The notes beneath the pieces are model-generated. The model was given only the letters and a program-made list of their open reading frames with translations, ran no database searches and had not been told where the DNA came from. From the NCBI GenBank assembly GCA_030591525.1, contig JAUVAV010000028.1, forward strand, positions 1-41,705: a DNA stretch of 41,705 bases, read 5' to 3'. How positions within the stretch are numbered: position 1 is the first letter of the stretch; each line of letters starts with the position of its first letter. The DNA comes from a candidate division FCPU426 bacterium (GTDB lineage Bacteria; Oederibacteriota; JAAXVQ01; JAUVAV01). Both the position numbers and the translations under genes were made by a program. Positions 21,461-27,718 of this stretch are shown here, piece by piece.

Positions 21461-21571
21461 AGGAGTTGGGGAATAGGGTTGTTTCTTGAAAACCAAGGCA
21501 AATAGGAGTAATCTTTACAAAGCTATATAAATTATAAAAAAATGCAATCATCGAAGGCGGAGGACAGAACC

Positions 21572-22717
21572 ATGAAAAAAATCTGCTTCATTTTCGGATC
21601 AGGTGCTACTTGCGGGTCAGGATACAAAATCAAGGGTAGTAAAGAAGATGGTTTTTTTTCTAATAACAGTATAAATAATGCCCCACCCACAGATCAGGGG
21701 TTTTTTCCGGCACTGAACCTTGATAATGAAAAATATCCTGCACTTGGGATATTGACCGAAGAATTTAAAACCAAATCCATGGAAGCAACTATGGTGTTGA
21801 TTGAAGCCGGATACTTCCTGCAATCGGGTCAAAGTGATCAATTGGATGAATCTTTTGATAAATGGCTTGAGAAAACAATAAAAAAAAATCGGGATGAATT
21901 TCATCAAGCCATTATCGCTTTAAATTTAAAATATAAAGGATCAAATAAGCGCGCGTCTTTCAATGGAAATTGTGAAGAAAAAGAGCAATTTCAATTAACC
22001 GGTGATGCGCAGCGCGAGATGTGGCATCTGATTTGGATGCTATATGGGAAGAGGATACAGTTGCCAAATAATGGTGTTGATAATTTCAAGCAATTATTTT
22101 CTAAGATCAAGAAAAAAGAATATCAGTTTTCAGTCATCACATTCAACTATGATCTGCTGGCTGAAAATAATCTAGAACAATATACCTATGTGGGTTGTGA
22201 TGGAGTGCGATCGCATGCTGAAAATTTGCCGGTGGTGGCCAAGCTGCATGGCAGCCTGAGCTGGCAGGAAAAATGTGAAAAAGGCAAGCAGCCTGAGGTC
22301 GTATTTCTCGGAGATGTGATTCCGGAAATTGACTATACCGGAAAAGCCGGGTTAGATTATGTGCAGCCTGCCATTGTGGCTCCCACATTCACCAAGTCAG
22401 AGATTACGGATGCAGGCAATAACCCGATTCGCAAGATCATCCGGGCTCAATGGGAGTATGCCAAGCATTTACTGGATTGGGCTGATCATTGGATTTTTGT
22501 GGGGTATTCATTTCCTGAAACCGACACACATGCCGAGAAATTATTTAGGGAAATAAAAACCAAAAAGAATAGAAGATTTTTTGCAATATATAAAGATAAA
22601 GATAAAGATAATGAGCTTGAGAAACGTTTTAAAGAAATTGTAGGCAAAAGTATAGAATTTAATCATGACGGTTTTGATAACAAAGCTTTGAAAGCATTAA
22701 TTGATTGGCTCGGGTGA
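21572..22717 (+). CDS. SIR2-like domain protein (possible defence NADase)
   Basis: 381 residues from the ATG at 21572, chosen because GGAGG is 8 bases upstream; an ATG ten codons earlier has no such site. The Rossmann glycine motif is at the start (IFGSGATCGSG). VITFNYDLL fits the conserved Asn/Asp of the sirtuin fold, KLHGSLSW carries the probable catalytic His, and IFVGYSFPETDTHAEKLF is the C-terminal SIR2_2-type motif. Related domains deplete NAD in Thoeris, DSR and other anti-phage systems. No helicase, Argonaute, TIR or other partner gene lies beside it, so it could be a stand-alone defence gene or an orphan. AT-rich composition and surrounding repeats suggest transfer. Confidence 0.78.
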   Translation: MKKICFIFGSGATCGSGYKIKGSKEDGFFSNNSINNAPPTDQGFFPALNLDNEKYPALGILTEEFKTKSMEATMVLIEAGYFLQSGQSDQLDESFDKWLEKTIKKNRDEFHQAIIALNLKYKGSNKRASFNGNCEEKEQFQLTGDAQREMWHLIWMLYGKRIQLPNNGVDNFKQLFSKIKKKEYQFSVITFNYDLLAENNLEQYTYVGCDGVRSHAENLPVVAKLHGSLSWQEKCEKGKQPEVVFLGDVIPEIDYTGKAGLDYVQPAIVAPTFTKSEITDAGNNPIRKIIRAQWEYAKHLLDWADHWIFVGYSFPETDTHAEKLFREIKTKKNRRFFAIYKDKDKDNELEKRFKEIVGKSIEFNHDGFDNKALKALIDWLG

Positions 22718-22801: not shown

Positions 22802-23023
22802 CGGATGTAGGGGCGTTTAATTAAACGCCCCTACACAAACGAAATACTCGCCTCTCTTCGGGCAGCCGCTCGCAATAACTGGTTTCTATTACTTTTTTAG
22901 CACATTGTCATGCTGCGACAGATTGAAGCTCTGCTTTAGATATTGCCCGGTCACGAAAATATTTACCCTGGGCGGGCATGGAAGCCCGCCCCTACGAAAA
23001 TCGTATTGCCAAACAAGAGCAGT
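22802..23023. repeat. 222-bp direct repeat, copy 1
   Basis: This unit and the one at 23110-23331 are equal in length and about 93% identical by eye, with no indels. Each begins with a palindrome around GGCGTTTAATTAAACGCC and ends after a GGGCGGGCatggaaGCCCGCCC hairpin. No open frame is shared or conserved. It lies in the gene-free spacer 22718-23345. Confidence 0.9.
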
Positions 23024-23109
23024 GTTGGGGGACGGAGGCAATTTGTCAAGTTAAGGGCCAAATTATGTGACCTTCCCCAGGCCCCAACGTTAGTTCTCAC
23101 CAAAACATA

Positions 23110-23331
23110 CGGATGTAGGGGCGTTTAATTAAACGCCCCTACACAAACGAAATACTCGCCTCTCTTCTGGTAGCCGCTCGCAATAGCTTATTTCTATCTG
23201 GTTTTTAGCACATTGTTATGCTGCGACCGATTGAAGCTCTGCTTCAGATACTGCCCGGTCACCAAAATATTTGCCCTGGGCGGGCATGGAAGCCCGCCCC
23301 TACGAAAATCGTATTGCCAAACGAGAGCAGT
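23110..23331. repeat. 222-bp direct repeat, copy 2
   Basis: Second copy of the unit at 22802-23023, separated from it by 86 unrelated bases. It ends 14 bases from the stop codon of the metallophosphoesterase gene. Confidence 0.9.
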
Positions 23332-24350: not shown

Positions 24351-24728
24351 GTGAGTCAAGAGAGACGGCAGACCGAACGTATCCAACCTATTTTGCGCGT
24401 ACGGACGGAAGTCTTTAGCAACAAAGCTAATATTCATTTGGCTATTTTTGCCGACATTTTAAATATCTCAGAAGAAGGCATTTGCATCGAATCACCGCTG
24501 GAACTGGAAATTAGCGACCGGCTAAAAATTTATTTACCCCGGCTGGATCAAGATCAACCTTTAATCATCCAGGGAGAAGTTATGTGGATTGAATCGATAG
24601 ACCCCTATATTTTTAAGTGTGGGCTGACATTAATCGAGAGTGACCGGGAAAGAAAAGAAGAAGTTAAGGCCGATATAAAGACGATTATGGAAACTTATTT
24701 TCAGCAAAAACCCTGGGAGTTTAAATAA
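24351..24728 (+). CDS. PilZ-domain protein (probable c-di-GMP receptor)
   Basis: 125 residues, a single PilZ domain. ERRQTER near the start fits RxxxR, and DILNISEEGICI fits the NxSxxG motif, so c-di-GMP binding looks intact, more clearly than in the PilZ protein at 8993. The GTG start at 24351 has GAGGAGGTG 8 bases upstream. TATAAT at 24309-24314 may be the -10 box. It converges with the SNase-like gene, leaving 11 bases between stops. Confidence 0.85.
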   Translation: MSQERRQTERIQPILRVRTEVFSNKANIHLAIFADILNISEEGICIESPLELEISDRLKIYLPRLDQDQPLIIQGEVMWIESIDPYIFKCGLTLIESDRERKEEVKADIKTIMETYFQQKPWEFK

Positions 24729-24739
24729 ATACTAAGCCA

Positions 24740-25345
24740 TTAATTATCCGGGTTGGTATCGCAAGCAAATATTTCCTGGGGCAGGGGTAACCGTGGTTTC
24801 CGGGCTATTTGTTCCTCAGCCGAAAGCCGGGATTTCCAAAGGCCGGCGCCTTCCTGACAGGCTTCGTGCTCAGCATGAAGAAAAATATTCCGGTACTTAA
24901 AAGTATTATGCCGGTGAGTACGGCCGTAACCCTGGCGGATGATCTTGTAGTTTAGAAAAAGCAGGTCGGATTGCCGGTAAACGTAAGCTGGCATGCGGCC
25001 GTATTGGTCGCGATATGGAAAAGGGAAAGCGAGCAGAACGTGTTCGCCTTTAAAAAGACCCCAAATAGAAGAAGCTTTTATTCCGTGACGTTTACCCGGG
25101 GGGATAGGAAGTTGCGGGTTAAGCATATCTACTCCGAGTAAAGAGAGACGGTCATTTGCGCCATTAATCCTGACGATGATGGTGCCGCCATTAACCACGT
25201 TTATTAATTGGGCGGAAATTAAATTATTTCTTTCCGAGGCTTCCTGCGCTTGCGAGTGAGACCAGGCGGTTACGCCGGAGGAAACAAGCAGCAGGAAAAT
25301 AAGAGCACGACAATTGAAAATAGGGATAAAAAGCATCCTTGGCAT
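24740..25345 (-). CDS. Secreted SNase-like (thermonuclease fold) protein, probably catalytically dead
   Basis: 201 residues with an N-terminal signal peptide (hydrophobic core ALIFLLLVSSGVTAW). The staphylococcal-nuclease pattern is recognisable: NVVNGGTIIVRING (usual DGDT), LSLLGVDMLNP (usual RLxGIDxPE), RDQYGRMPAYVYR and LNYKIIRQGYGRTHR, then the EGAGLW end. The catalytic Glu and the first catalytic Arg appear replaced (VDxPE reads VDMLN; the residue aligned with the first Arg appears to be Ser), while the Arg of QYGR remains. A binding role is therefore more likely than nuclease activity. The ATG at 25345 has GGGAG 10 bases upstream. A 57-codon gene precedes it by 18 bases. Confidence 0.78.
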   Translation of the reverse strand: MPRMLFIPIFNCRALIFLLLVSSGVTAWSHSQAQEASERNNLISAQLINVVNGGTIIVRINGANDRLSLLGVDMLNPQLPIPPGKRHGIKASSIWGLFKGEHVLLAFPFPYRDQYGRMPAYVYRQSDLLFLNYKIIRQGYGRTHRHNTFKYRNIFLHAEHEACQEGAGLWKSRLSAEEQIARKPRLPLPQEIFACDTNPDN

Positions 25346-25363
25346 GGGAAATCAGCTCCCGGT

Positions 25364-25537
25364 TTATTTGTCTGAAGGGCCTAATATATCCAGAAAAATA
25401 GAGTCCAGAGTTTCGTCATCGAGATTCAAAACATCTTCATCCGTTATTTCCTGCGATTGGTCTTGGGCGGCAACCGTAAGGCCACCCAGGAGACCCAAAT
25501 GTGCCGCTAAACAAAGGAGAGCGATTTTTTTTACCAT
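25364..25537 (-). CDS. Small secreted acidic protein (57 aa), unknown function
   Basis: The gene starts at the ATG at 25537 with AAGGGG about 9 bases upstream and ends with TAA at 25364-25366. The protein begins MVKKIALLCLAAHLG, a signal peptide probably cut after VAA. The mature part is about 33 residues and strongly acidic (EITDEDVLNLDDETLDSIF). It is not a lipoprotein by the usual box. It sits 18 bases upstream of the SNase-like gene on the same strand, so the two are likely co-expressed. I know no family for it. Confidence 0.7.
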   Translation of the reverse strand: MVKKIALLCLAAHLGLLGGLTVAAQDQSQEITDEDVLNLDDETLDSIFLDILGPSDK

Positions 25538-26092
25538 ATTTCTATCCCCTTGTCTAAAGAATTTCAGGGTTTGGAATAAACCCGCTGGCCCAGTTTGCGT
25601 AGATATTAATATGCGCTATGCGTTGCCCCTCGCCCCGTGGGGAGAGGGGCAACGCAATTTAGGAAGTGCTGCCAGATAGCTATTTTTATGAGGTCATCCC
25701 GGAAAACTTGTCCCCAGTGAAGTCGAAGGGAGGCGAGGGATCTCCAGGAAAATAGCTTTTGGCAACAGTTCCATTCATCAGACCATTAAGTATTATGCAT
25801 TTTGTGTGCCATTTTTTATTTGCAGCGCTATTTTAACAGATGTCAGAAAAGATCAGATTTATAAAAGGATAATTCAACCGGCTGTCTTACCTCTTTATGA
25901 CGGCGAAAATGCATGGGTAAATCATTCCATAAATTCATGCCTCAAATATCTATTTTAACTTTAAAAATCCCCCGGAATTCCCAAATAAAATCTATCTTTT
26001 TAAGATACAACATATTAATATACCCCACAGTTTGCTCGCTGTTCGGAGCAAAGAGGCTGTGCTACTGCAAAAAAGGCAGGTAAAGACGTATC
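25538..26092. other. Gene-free spacer with a dispersed hairpin
   Basis: It holds the hairpin GCGTTGCCCCTC/GAGGGGCAACGC at 25620-25655 and a weak copy of the GTCATTCC-type repeat near 25692-25745. No further gene, tRNA or clear promoter was seen. Confidence 0.6.
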
Positions 26093-27718
26093 ATGCGCAT
26101 AAACCGAGCATGGGCCGCAATGGCGCCCGTGGGAGTTGTCATTATTGCCGTAATGTTAAGCAGTACCGGGCCGATAGCGAATAACGATTATGGCCTCCAT
26201 CTCCGGATCGGCCAGGAAATTGCGGAAAACGGGAAAATTCCCCGGCACGATAACCATTCCTATACTCTGCCGAAGGCCCCTTATCCGGCCCACGAGTGGC
26301 TCATCCAAGGGTTGCTTTACCGTCTGCATAAGGCCTGCGGTAATAGCGGCCTGGTAGTTTTAAAAGGATTATTAACCGGCCTTACATTGATTTTCCTTAT
26401 GCTCTCGATCCGCGGGCCGCTAGTAATCAAGCTAAGCCTGATCATCATGATCTGGTTATTGGGATGGAACCATATATATATACGGCCGCATTTGTTCTCC
26501 TGGATGCTGGCCAGTCTTTTAGTTCTGTTCTTAAACCGGAGAATTTATTGGGCGTTGCCGCTGCTGTTGCTGCTCTGGGCCAATAGCCATGGCAGTATCC
26601 TGCTGGGTGTAGGGATTATTGGGATTCATTTTTTGAAAGAGCAACAATCAAAGCAGTCATACCGGCCTATGATTTGGATCGGCCTTTGTATGTTAGTTCC
26701 TCTGCTTAATCCCCTGGGCATTGGTATTTATACTATCTTTTTCCAGATCAGCGCGCATACCGGATTTATCGGTGAATGGAAATCTTATGCCCTGAACACA
26801 GTGGCTTTCTGGGTCTTAACCGGACTTTTTACGTTGGCGGGATACGGTTGGTTTAAATCACAAGAGAAGAATCCATATGACCTTATTTTGATCGGGGTTT
26901 TAGCTCTGCTAAGTTTTTCTTCCAGCCGCAATGGTATCATGGCTGCTATTTTCCTGACTCCTTTTCTCGACCAATGGTATACCCCATTATTATCCCGTGG
27001 AGAACCCCGGGCCCGGAAAATCCAGGCCTGGGGTTTTGTCATTCTGGCCTTGGCGCTGCTGGGCCTTCGTCTGAATAATGGTCAGGTTTTAAGCTTCCGG
27101 CTGGATTATGAGCGTCTCCCCATAGCGGCTGTACAATTTATGAAAAAACATCGTCTGCCCGGCCCGGTTTTCAATGATTACAATTTTGGGGGTTACTTCC
27201 TTTGGAAAGCCTGGCCGGATTATCCGGTTTTTATTGACGGACGCACTGAAGTTTATCAGGGCAGAGTGCTGAAGGAATATTTAACTGTTTCCCGCGCCCA
27301 AGCCGGTTGGGAGCGGATTATGCGGAAGTATGATATCAAGGTTATGGTTATTCGGCCCGAAAGGGAGATTGCCAAGGTGCTCTTACAGCATGAGGCTTGG
27401 GATCTGGTTTATTTCGATTATAATTCCGTGATTTTTATCCGCTCGGACATACTCCCGGAGCTTAGGCGTCTGCATGTCATATCCCCTTACGGCCATCGGG
27501 ATAGCTCGCAAGTGCGGCAAGCGACGGAAGAAATAAATTATATGGTTCAAGAAAACCCCGTATTTTTCGGAGGATATAAAATACTGGCTTTTCTGCTGTA
27601 TCGACAGGGTAACCTGGCGGGCGCCCGCCAGGCTATTGGTCAATATTTAAAATTGCATCCTCAGGGCCGGCGGAACCCGGAAGCCCGATCCCTATTGCGG
27701 GCATTGCAAAGGCGATGA
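26093..27718 (+). CDS. Polytopic membrane protein, GT-C glycosyltransferase-like, with TPR-like tail
   Basis: 541 residues. A first membrane span is followed by NDYGLHLRIGQEI and HEWLIQGLLY, a pattern like the first outer loop of GT-C enzymes, where an Asp is catalytic. About ten membrane spans follow up to about residue 335. The soluble part has VFNDYNFGGYFLWKAWPDYP and VFIDGRTEVY, seen in a widespread uncharacterised family. The last 60 residues look like one or two TPR helix pairs (AFLLYRQGNLAGARQAIGQY). A role in lipid-linked sugar transfer, perhaps modifying surface proteins, is plausible but not shown. Confidence 0.7.
   Translation: MRINRAWAAMAPVGVVIIAVMLSSTGPIANNDYGLHLRIGQEIAENGKIPRHDNHSYTLPKAPYPAHEWLIQGLLYRLHKACGNSGLVVLKGLLTGLTLIFLMLSIRGPLVIKLSLIIMIWLLGWNHIYIRPHLFSWMLASLLVLFLNRRIYWALPLLLLLWANSHGSILLGVGIIGIHFLKEQQSKQSYRPMIWIGLCMLVPLLNPLGIGIYTIFFQISAHTGFIGEWKSYALNTVAFWVLTGLFTLAGYGWFKSQEKNPYDLILIGVLALLSFSSSRNGIMAAIFLTPFLDQWYTPLLSRGEPRARKIQAWGFVILALALLGLRLNNGQVLSFRLDYERLPIAAVQFMKKHRLPGPVFNDYNFGGYFLWKAWPDYPVFIDGRTEVYQGRVLKEYLTVSRAQAGWERIMRKYDIKVMVIRPEREIAKVLLQHEAWDLVYFDYNSVIFIRSDILPELRRLHVISPYGHRDSSQVRQATEEINYMVQENPVFFGGYKILAFLLYRQGNLAGARQAIGQYLKLHPQGRRNPEARSLLRALQRR

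Follow-up and report, generated by a model that had tools for sequence, protein, structure and literature searches.

A candidate sigma-54-controlled locus encoding an exported acidic microprotein and a catalytically degenerate SNase-fold protein in a candidate division FCPU426 bacterium

We analyzed a stretch of 41,705 nucleotides (hereafter the window) from a candidate division FCPU426 bacterium, in which two small genes for predicted exported proteins follow one another on the minus strand, and asked whether their products form a dedicated pair or stand together for another reason. The first gene encodes a 57-aa acidic microprotein (P0002, 25364..25537, minus; DETLDSIFLDIL), defined by its open reading frame, ribosome site and relatives, with an ATG at 25537 and a stop codon ending at 25364. 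The second encodes a 201-aa SNase-fold protein with an incomplete catalytic set (P0001, 24740..25345, minus), defined by its PF00565 match, fold match and residue map. The sequence-only reading had described a 57-codon gene with its own ribosome site and signal peptide, 18 bases ahead of its neighbor, and this description was borne out: AAGGGG lies 8 nt ahead of the microprotein ATG, 18 bases separate the microprotein stop from the SNase-like ATG at 25345 on the same strand, and the N-termini of both proteins look like signal peptides by eye. Elsewhere in the window, a 222-nt direct repeat (22802-23331, 93% identical, spaced 308 nt) adjoins a SIR2-like gene at 21542-22717.

P0002 comprises a signal peptide followed by an acidic segment with a predicted helix; a single-sequence structure model placed helices at residues 2-23 and 41-52 with low confidence (pLDDT 62). 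With the cleavage site placed by eye, the mature microprotein has 33 aa, a pI of 4.05 and a charge of -10, and the mature SNase-like protein is basic (pI 9.5, charge +6). No family was found for the microprotein in Pfam or NCBIfam. A search with the whole protein retrieved relatives in its own genome (E 2.9e-6) and in another genus (4.3e-6). We aligned its mature part to seven segments of six related proteins and compared the scores with those of 5000 shuffles of the same composition, of which 0, 0, 0, 2, 1, 0 and 0 reached the observed score. Because the alignment scores beat the shuffles and relatives occur both in the same genome and in another genus, the microprotein is no chance ORF.

The relatives were of two kinds: (a) exported proteins with two repeats, 120-124 aa long, in the window genome (G000), its sister species (G001) and G005, and (b) long acidic exported proteins, matched at their N-termini, in G000, G001, G005 and G006; the G000 protein has 408 aa when counted from a GTG codon inside its 424-aa ORF. 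The module consists of a signal peptide and a short acidic helix, and by alignment the microprotein is a free-standing relative of the module at the N-terminus of the long envelope protein. Each of the four long proteins has the same N-terminal D....NSILDELIG, and the ~250 residues after it (G000 numbering) are poorly conserved; an invariant motif followed by a variable remainder would be the mark of a short docking motif. In the microprotein the motif has drifted (DSIFLDILG vs NSILDELIG). The long-protein gene belongs to an operon with the order TPR-ExbB-ExbD-ExbD-TonB-318aa-module protein-CheR, followed by a TPR gene, in which Pfam profiles detected MotA_ExbB, ExbD twice and TonB_C (C82), a gene set of Agl-Glt-like composition. 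Neither the long module protein nor the 318-aa protein, which is exported, matched a family in Pfam or NCBIfam, and a phmmer search of the PDB with the 318-aa protein gave no match up to E 1. For the two-repeat protein, all Pfam matches were below the curated cut-offs and NCBIfam gave none. Its gene in G005 lies 67 bp before a CheA-like gene, followed by a CheW gene.

We then compared the locus with that of the sister species, whose SNase-like protein is 70% identical to P0001 and whose gene stands directly behind the same promoter with no small gene. Upstream synteny is partly retained: the ABC-F gene is present at 91% identity, as is a small gene presumably encoding a URI-like endonuclease, and a 161-bp upstream block is retained at 68% identity to the window. 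The segment between this block and the SNase start (25361..25796, minus) measures 436 bp in the window vs 43 bp in G001, and the microprotein gene sits within the ~390-bp indel absent from G001, which may be an insertion in the window lineage or a deletion in G001. The part between promoter and microprotein (25538..25796, minus) is a leader of 259 nt whose RNA is predicted to fold strongly (z -5.2) and which contains a 38-bp palindrome (25619-25656). A dispersed-repeat origin for the indel found no support, the leader being unrepeated in the genome except for its own palindrome and two 22-bp matches. Searching 59 genomes with a module profile (A3) yielded matches in 5 (G000, G001, G005, G006 and G017, the last matching weakly and in no more than the signal-peptide part), and the microprotein itself was seen in the window genome only. 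The small gene could be read as a fragment that was copied or inserted not long ago, came to lie behind a borrowed promoter and now drifts functionless, leaving the SNase-like protein as the sole working product. Its occurrence in one genome, its position within an indel, its diverged motif and the long structured leader are all consistent with such a passenger, but the ORF is intact, with a ribosome site and signal peptide, and the acidic pattern is kept well beyond the shuffles; we consider this reading unlikely, though a serious contender.

A dedicated pair, with the acidic peptide as an inhibitor, chaperone or DNA mimic bound to the basic SNase-fold protein, would suit two adjacent genes on the same strand, 18 bp apart and probably on one transcript, and the opposite charges (-10 and +6) leave binding possible without being evidence of it. 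The sequence-only reading had suggested a binding or inhibitor pair, or alternatively a possible extracytoplasmic sensor; it had called for co-conserved pairs in other genomes, which the A3 search of 59 genomes did not find. The G001 SNase-like gene stands alone behind the same promoter, and module relatives lie in other operons. Outside the window genome, A3 never matched on a contig that also carries an SNase-like gene; in G002 and G004, both with SNase-like genes, it matched nowhere, and the G001 and G005 copies were off the contig of the SNase-like gene. The completeness of G001, G002, G004 and G005 is 87-97%, so that single absences are not certain, the absence at the G001 locus being direct, and the G004 SNase-like gene has its 5' end at a contig end. 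The two genes are thus not conserved together in the manner of a nuclease-inhibitor or toxin-antitoxin style pair, and the broken catalytic set described below probably leaves no nuclease to inhibit. We rejected a dedicated inhibitor pair on co-occurrence (the G001 locus and A3 in 59 genomes) and regard any dedicated pairing as improbable; the microprotein and the SNase-like protein look like members of one regulon instead.

What the window pair, the G001 SNase-like gene and three two-repeat genes have in common is an upstream element of ~180 bp (25797..25973, minus, in the window) that ends in TGGCAYRCAAAATGC, with sigma-54 spacing. We built a model (R1) from six copies, including the window copy and a further G000 copy (C6), so that the window match (E 3.6e-32) is on a training row. 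The sigma-54-type -24/-12 promoter at 25797..25811 (minus; TGGCACACAAAATGC) was assigned by a strict pattern and by the presence of RpoN and enhancer-binding proteins in the genome. It shows a conserved GG and GC at the exact -24/-12 spacing, which recur before three gene types (SNase-like, module and lipoprotein-like); the published sigma-54 consensus is tGGcacg / tTGCt (PMC4641369). The window genome encodes RpoN (Sigma54_DBD, E 9.6e-63) and has 10 Sigma54_activat matches, 7 of them strong (E below 1e-60). The strict pattern TGGCAYNCAAAATGC, which was derived from the element copies themselves, had 5 occurrences in 6 family genomes, all in the upstream element, vs 1 for the reversed-pattern control. 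A looser pattern (TGGCAYN6TGC) was not clearly enriched genome-wide (34 vs 28 for the reversed control). No sigma-70-like promoter was found in 24600-26150 (shuffle mean 2.6). The 259-nt structured leader between promoter and microprotein counts against the sigma-54-controlled unit proposed below.

Upstream of the promoter we identified two boxes: box B (TTATGGAATGATTTACCCA, 25914..25932, minus), a candidate activator site starting 121 bp upstream of the -24 element, and box A (ATAGATATTTGA, 25942..25953, minus), starting 21 bp upstream of box B. Across the elements, the boxes ATGGATATTT and TTATGGAATnnTTTnCCCA are 21 bp apart from start to start in 11 of 11 (10 by script, the G003 box A by eye), the box A pattern being loose, with additional matches elsewhere in 4 elements. 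The start of box B lies 110-124 bp from the -24 in the 10 elements that have one, a distance at which sigma-54 activator sites are expected (PMC4641369). Because the elements are homologous, the 21-bp spacing may reflect descent.

Further R1 copies were found in G001 (C47, 5.3e-15; C251, partial, 5.7e-7), G000 (C73, 1.3e-10), G003 (C106, 1.4e-6) and G002 (C29, 6.6e-6), not counting rows above E 1e-5 (next row 0.004). At most 150 candidates per genome were scored (for the window genome, 150 of 899), which makes the number of regulon members a minimum. Behind the G000 C73, G003 and G002 elements comes a lipoprotein-like ORF (59, 80 and up to 93 aa, by eye) and then a receiver-like protein, the Pfam test having been run at C73 only. 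At G001 C47, the element remains with a changed -12 and no lipoprotein ORF. By eye, the lipoprotein-like ORFs of ~60-90 aa (L100:1718-1894 in G000 C73, also L079 and L080) carry RWxPTDPRLDTPDPAD...ERWEI, and at these three loci they adjoin a stand-alone receiver protein behind the sigma-54 element. The C6 copy (L045:1501-1680) has no obvious exported ORF behind it. Among the strong matches, no R1 element was found before the long-protein operon, and a loose -24/-12 pattern gave nothing within 500 bp upstream of three long-protein genes, a scan with the operon start outside it; co-regulation of the motor with the window locus is at most a possibility.

The two-repeat genes and their elements (L034, L033 and L032) form a cassette that is 81% identical between G000 and G005 over 655 aligned bases (dS 0.20, dN/dS 0.67), vs a dS of 0.43 within the genus (G000-G001) and also between G001 and G005. 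For G000 vs G005, dS was 1.73 for ExbB, 1.78 and saturated for the two ExbD genes, and 3.32 for the 318-aa gene. Misbinning of the G005 cassette contig (C9) was rejected as the cause of the low cassette dS, C9 looking native by its FtsE gene (dS 3.47 vs the window genome, close to saturated). GC content is 32-34% in the cassette genes and 43-50% around them. From these divergences, transfer of the cassette between genera appears to be the simplest reading. One might go further and regard the upstream element as a mobile AT-rich sequence that travels with small genes and is no sigma-54 control region, given its 34% GC vs 51% for the window, the apparent exchange between genera and the C6 copy without a clear gene. 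The exact GG/GC spacing before three gene types and the RpoN and enhancer-binding proteins encoded in the genome make this very improbable.

P0001 scored 34.5-35.3 bits against PF00565 (cut-off 21), which places it in the SNase family, and was the sole SNase match found in the window genome; against the NCBIfam equivalogs (NucI, EcnA) it scored 49-50 bits, with cut-offs of 180 and 250. A structure model built with 13 aligned sequences (mean pLDDT 78.7) was matched to staphylococcal nuclease 5kru with a Z of 17.0 and an rmsd of 1.8 A over 125 aligned residues. We mapped the active site by alignment to solved nucleases, using residue numbers that we take to be those of the staphylococcal nuclease catalytic set. 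This gave D19>N52, D21>G54, R35>S68 and E43>N76, with D40 (D73) and R87 (R117) retained and an Arg at 66, two residues before the R35 position. From the thermonuclease set D21, R35, D40, E43 and R87, P0001 lacks D21, R35 and E43. A missing catalytic Glu and one missing Arg had been noticed correctly from the sequence (E43>N76, R35>S68); the metal ligand D21, a Ca-binding Asp, is lost as well. Judged by alignment and model, the SNase-like protein is catalytically degenerate with its fold kept.

To survey homologues, we searched contigs with the single SNase-like protein, which returned no relatives, and with an alignment, which returned 12 named loci. Homologues were present in 28 of the 59 genomes searched, at 29 places, 28 of which entered the residue alignment after excluding L028, a frame fused to a methyltransferase that lies outside the family and whose SNase sites look degenerate by eye. 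All six sequences of the window's family (G000, G001, G002 twice, G004, G005) have lost D21 and E43, and R35 and D40 are each lost in 5 of 6, the sister-species protein lacking D40 too. Outside the family, 19 of 22 aligned rows have all five residues, and the remaining 3 (L013, L021, L022) have sites cut off by an internal-Met start that are intact by eye in the full frames. L146, one of the named loci and also outside the family, has Asn at the D40 place by eye, so that single residues can be lost there as well. A Chloroflexi SNase-domain protein (L148:5698-6717) has GIATPAF at the expected active site by eye, which looks like a separate catalytic loss. In a 37-row tree, the six family sequences group as a single clade (support 99/96; recovered in 98% of 200 bootstrap trees), with the G005 and G002b rows on long branches. 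Because 6 of 6 lack D21 and E43 and form one clade, the predicted catalytic loss is old and lineage-wide. Between the window and G001, dN/dS was 0.40 for the SNase-like gene and 0.17 for the adjoining ABC-F gene; by these ratios the gene is constrained, less than its neighbor, with some purifying selection between the sister species.

The earlier view that P0001 is not a nuclease gains support, at the level of sequence, from the loss of D21 and E43 throughout the family, the single clade and the dN/dS of 0.40. Intact homologues without a small gene, which had been offered as a refutation, do exist outside the family, and to that extent the objection stands; among the closest relatives, which are equally degenerate, it fails. 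That P0001 still cuts by way of other residues (e.g. R66 for R35) or another metal site, as D40, R87 and the Arg near R35 in the window copy and two Tudor-SN SN domains that cut despite mostly degenerate residues (but keep the calcium-binding Asp; PMC5900569) might suggest, is most improbable given the loss of D21 and E43 in 6 of 6 members and of D40 too in G001. The G004 and G002 SNase-like proteins (L004:1291-1905, L005:1273-2022, L030:1342-2220) are extended at the C-terminus by a segment in which paired Cys and a YH motif can be seen by eye, and their genes lie near one for a RuBisCO-like protein fused to a cupin.

Tentatively, we prefer to see the locus as a sigma-54-controlled unit that encodes two exported proteins without enzymatic activity, within a small regulon of envelope-directed small proteins, the peptide mimicking a docking motif and the SNase fold serving as a non-cutting binder. 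Its anatomy, the degeneracy, the kinship with the module and the shared element are read directly from the DNA; the mechanism goes beyond them. An enhancer-binding protein would activate sigma-54 polymerase, upon which the peptide and the SNase-fold protein would be exported. The short acidic helix of the peptide may occupy, or compete for, the site docked by D....NSILDELIG of the long protein, a site that we would place in the ExbB/ExbD/TonB motor complex. The SNase fold, an OB-fold, could bind a polymer outside the cytoplasm (DNA, RNA or another ligand) and leave it uncut. The two proteins would act in the same condition and not on each other. Mimicry of an envelope docking motif by the peptide is probable; the function of the peptide is the weakest step, because a single genome is known to encode the microprotein, in which the motif has drifted. 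A bolder version, which we think quite unlikely, has a mobile sigma-54 cassette spreading free copies of the motor docking motif as secreted regulators of the motor or its envelope partner, with the pseudo-nuclease recruited as a non-cutting binder.

The family is an example, extending across a bacterial lineage, of an exported SNase whose fold was kept and whose catalytic set was lost, and intact relatives outside it allow comparison. NSILDELIG is a short invariant motif at the tip of a motor-operon protein, testable as a docking site, and it recurs in diverged form in free exported peptides under a recognizable sigma-54-type element. If free peptides do mimic the docking motif of a motor, they would offer a simple means of tuning an envelope machine from outside the inner membrane. 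Among the matches listed in the open-licence literature, none described a bacterial pseudo-SNase or sigma-54-driven small exported peptides of this kind.

Staphylococcal nuclease or thermonuclease (PF00565; NucI, EcnA) resembles P0001 in its OB-fold, similar length, secretion signal and YGR motif with R87; unlike it, P0001 is without D21, R35 and E43 and far under the NCBIfam equivalog cut-offs. Tudor-SN (SND1) is described as having SNase folds in which most catalytic residues are mutated and as binding RNA (PMC5900569). P0001 is like its degenerate SN domains in combining an SNase fold with mutated catalytic residues, but it is a single exported bacterial domain, whereas Tudor-SN is eukaryotic, with five SN domains and a Tudor domain. 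The Agl-Glt gliding motor of Myxococcus xanthus is reported to comprise AglR, AglQ, AglS, GltG and TPR Glt proteins (PMC3169522). The module operon is like it in having one MotA/TolQ/ExbB, two ExbD/TolR and one TonB-C protein as well as a TPR protein, and differs in being a single operon with a CheR gene, the likeness being one of gene kinds. To our knowledge, the module protein has no counterpart in that motor. Regulons of sigma-54 and enhancer-binding proteins that control the bacterial exterior are described as having a -24/-12 promoter with activator boxes ~100 bp or more upstream (PMC4641369; PMC3162934). The window element is like theirs in its -24/-12 promoter and upstream boxes, in a genome with RpoN and enhancer-binding proteins, and differs in its candidate targets, which comprise very small proteins for export, a pseudo-nuclease and a tiny lipoprotein-like ORF; its activator would be one of the candidate enhancer-binding proteins.
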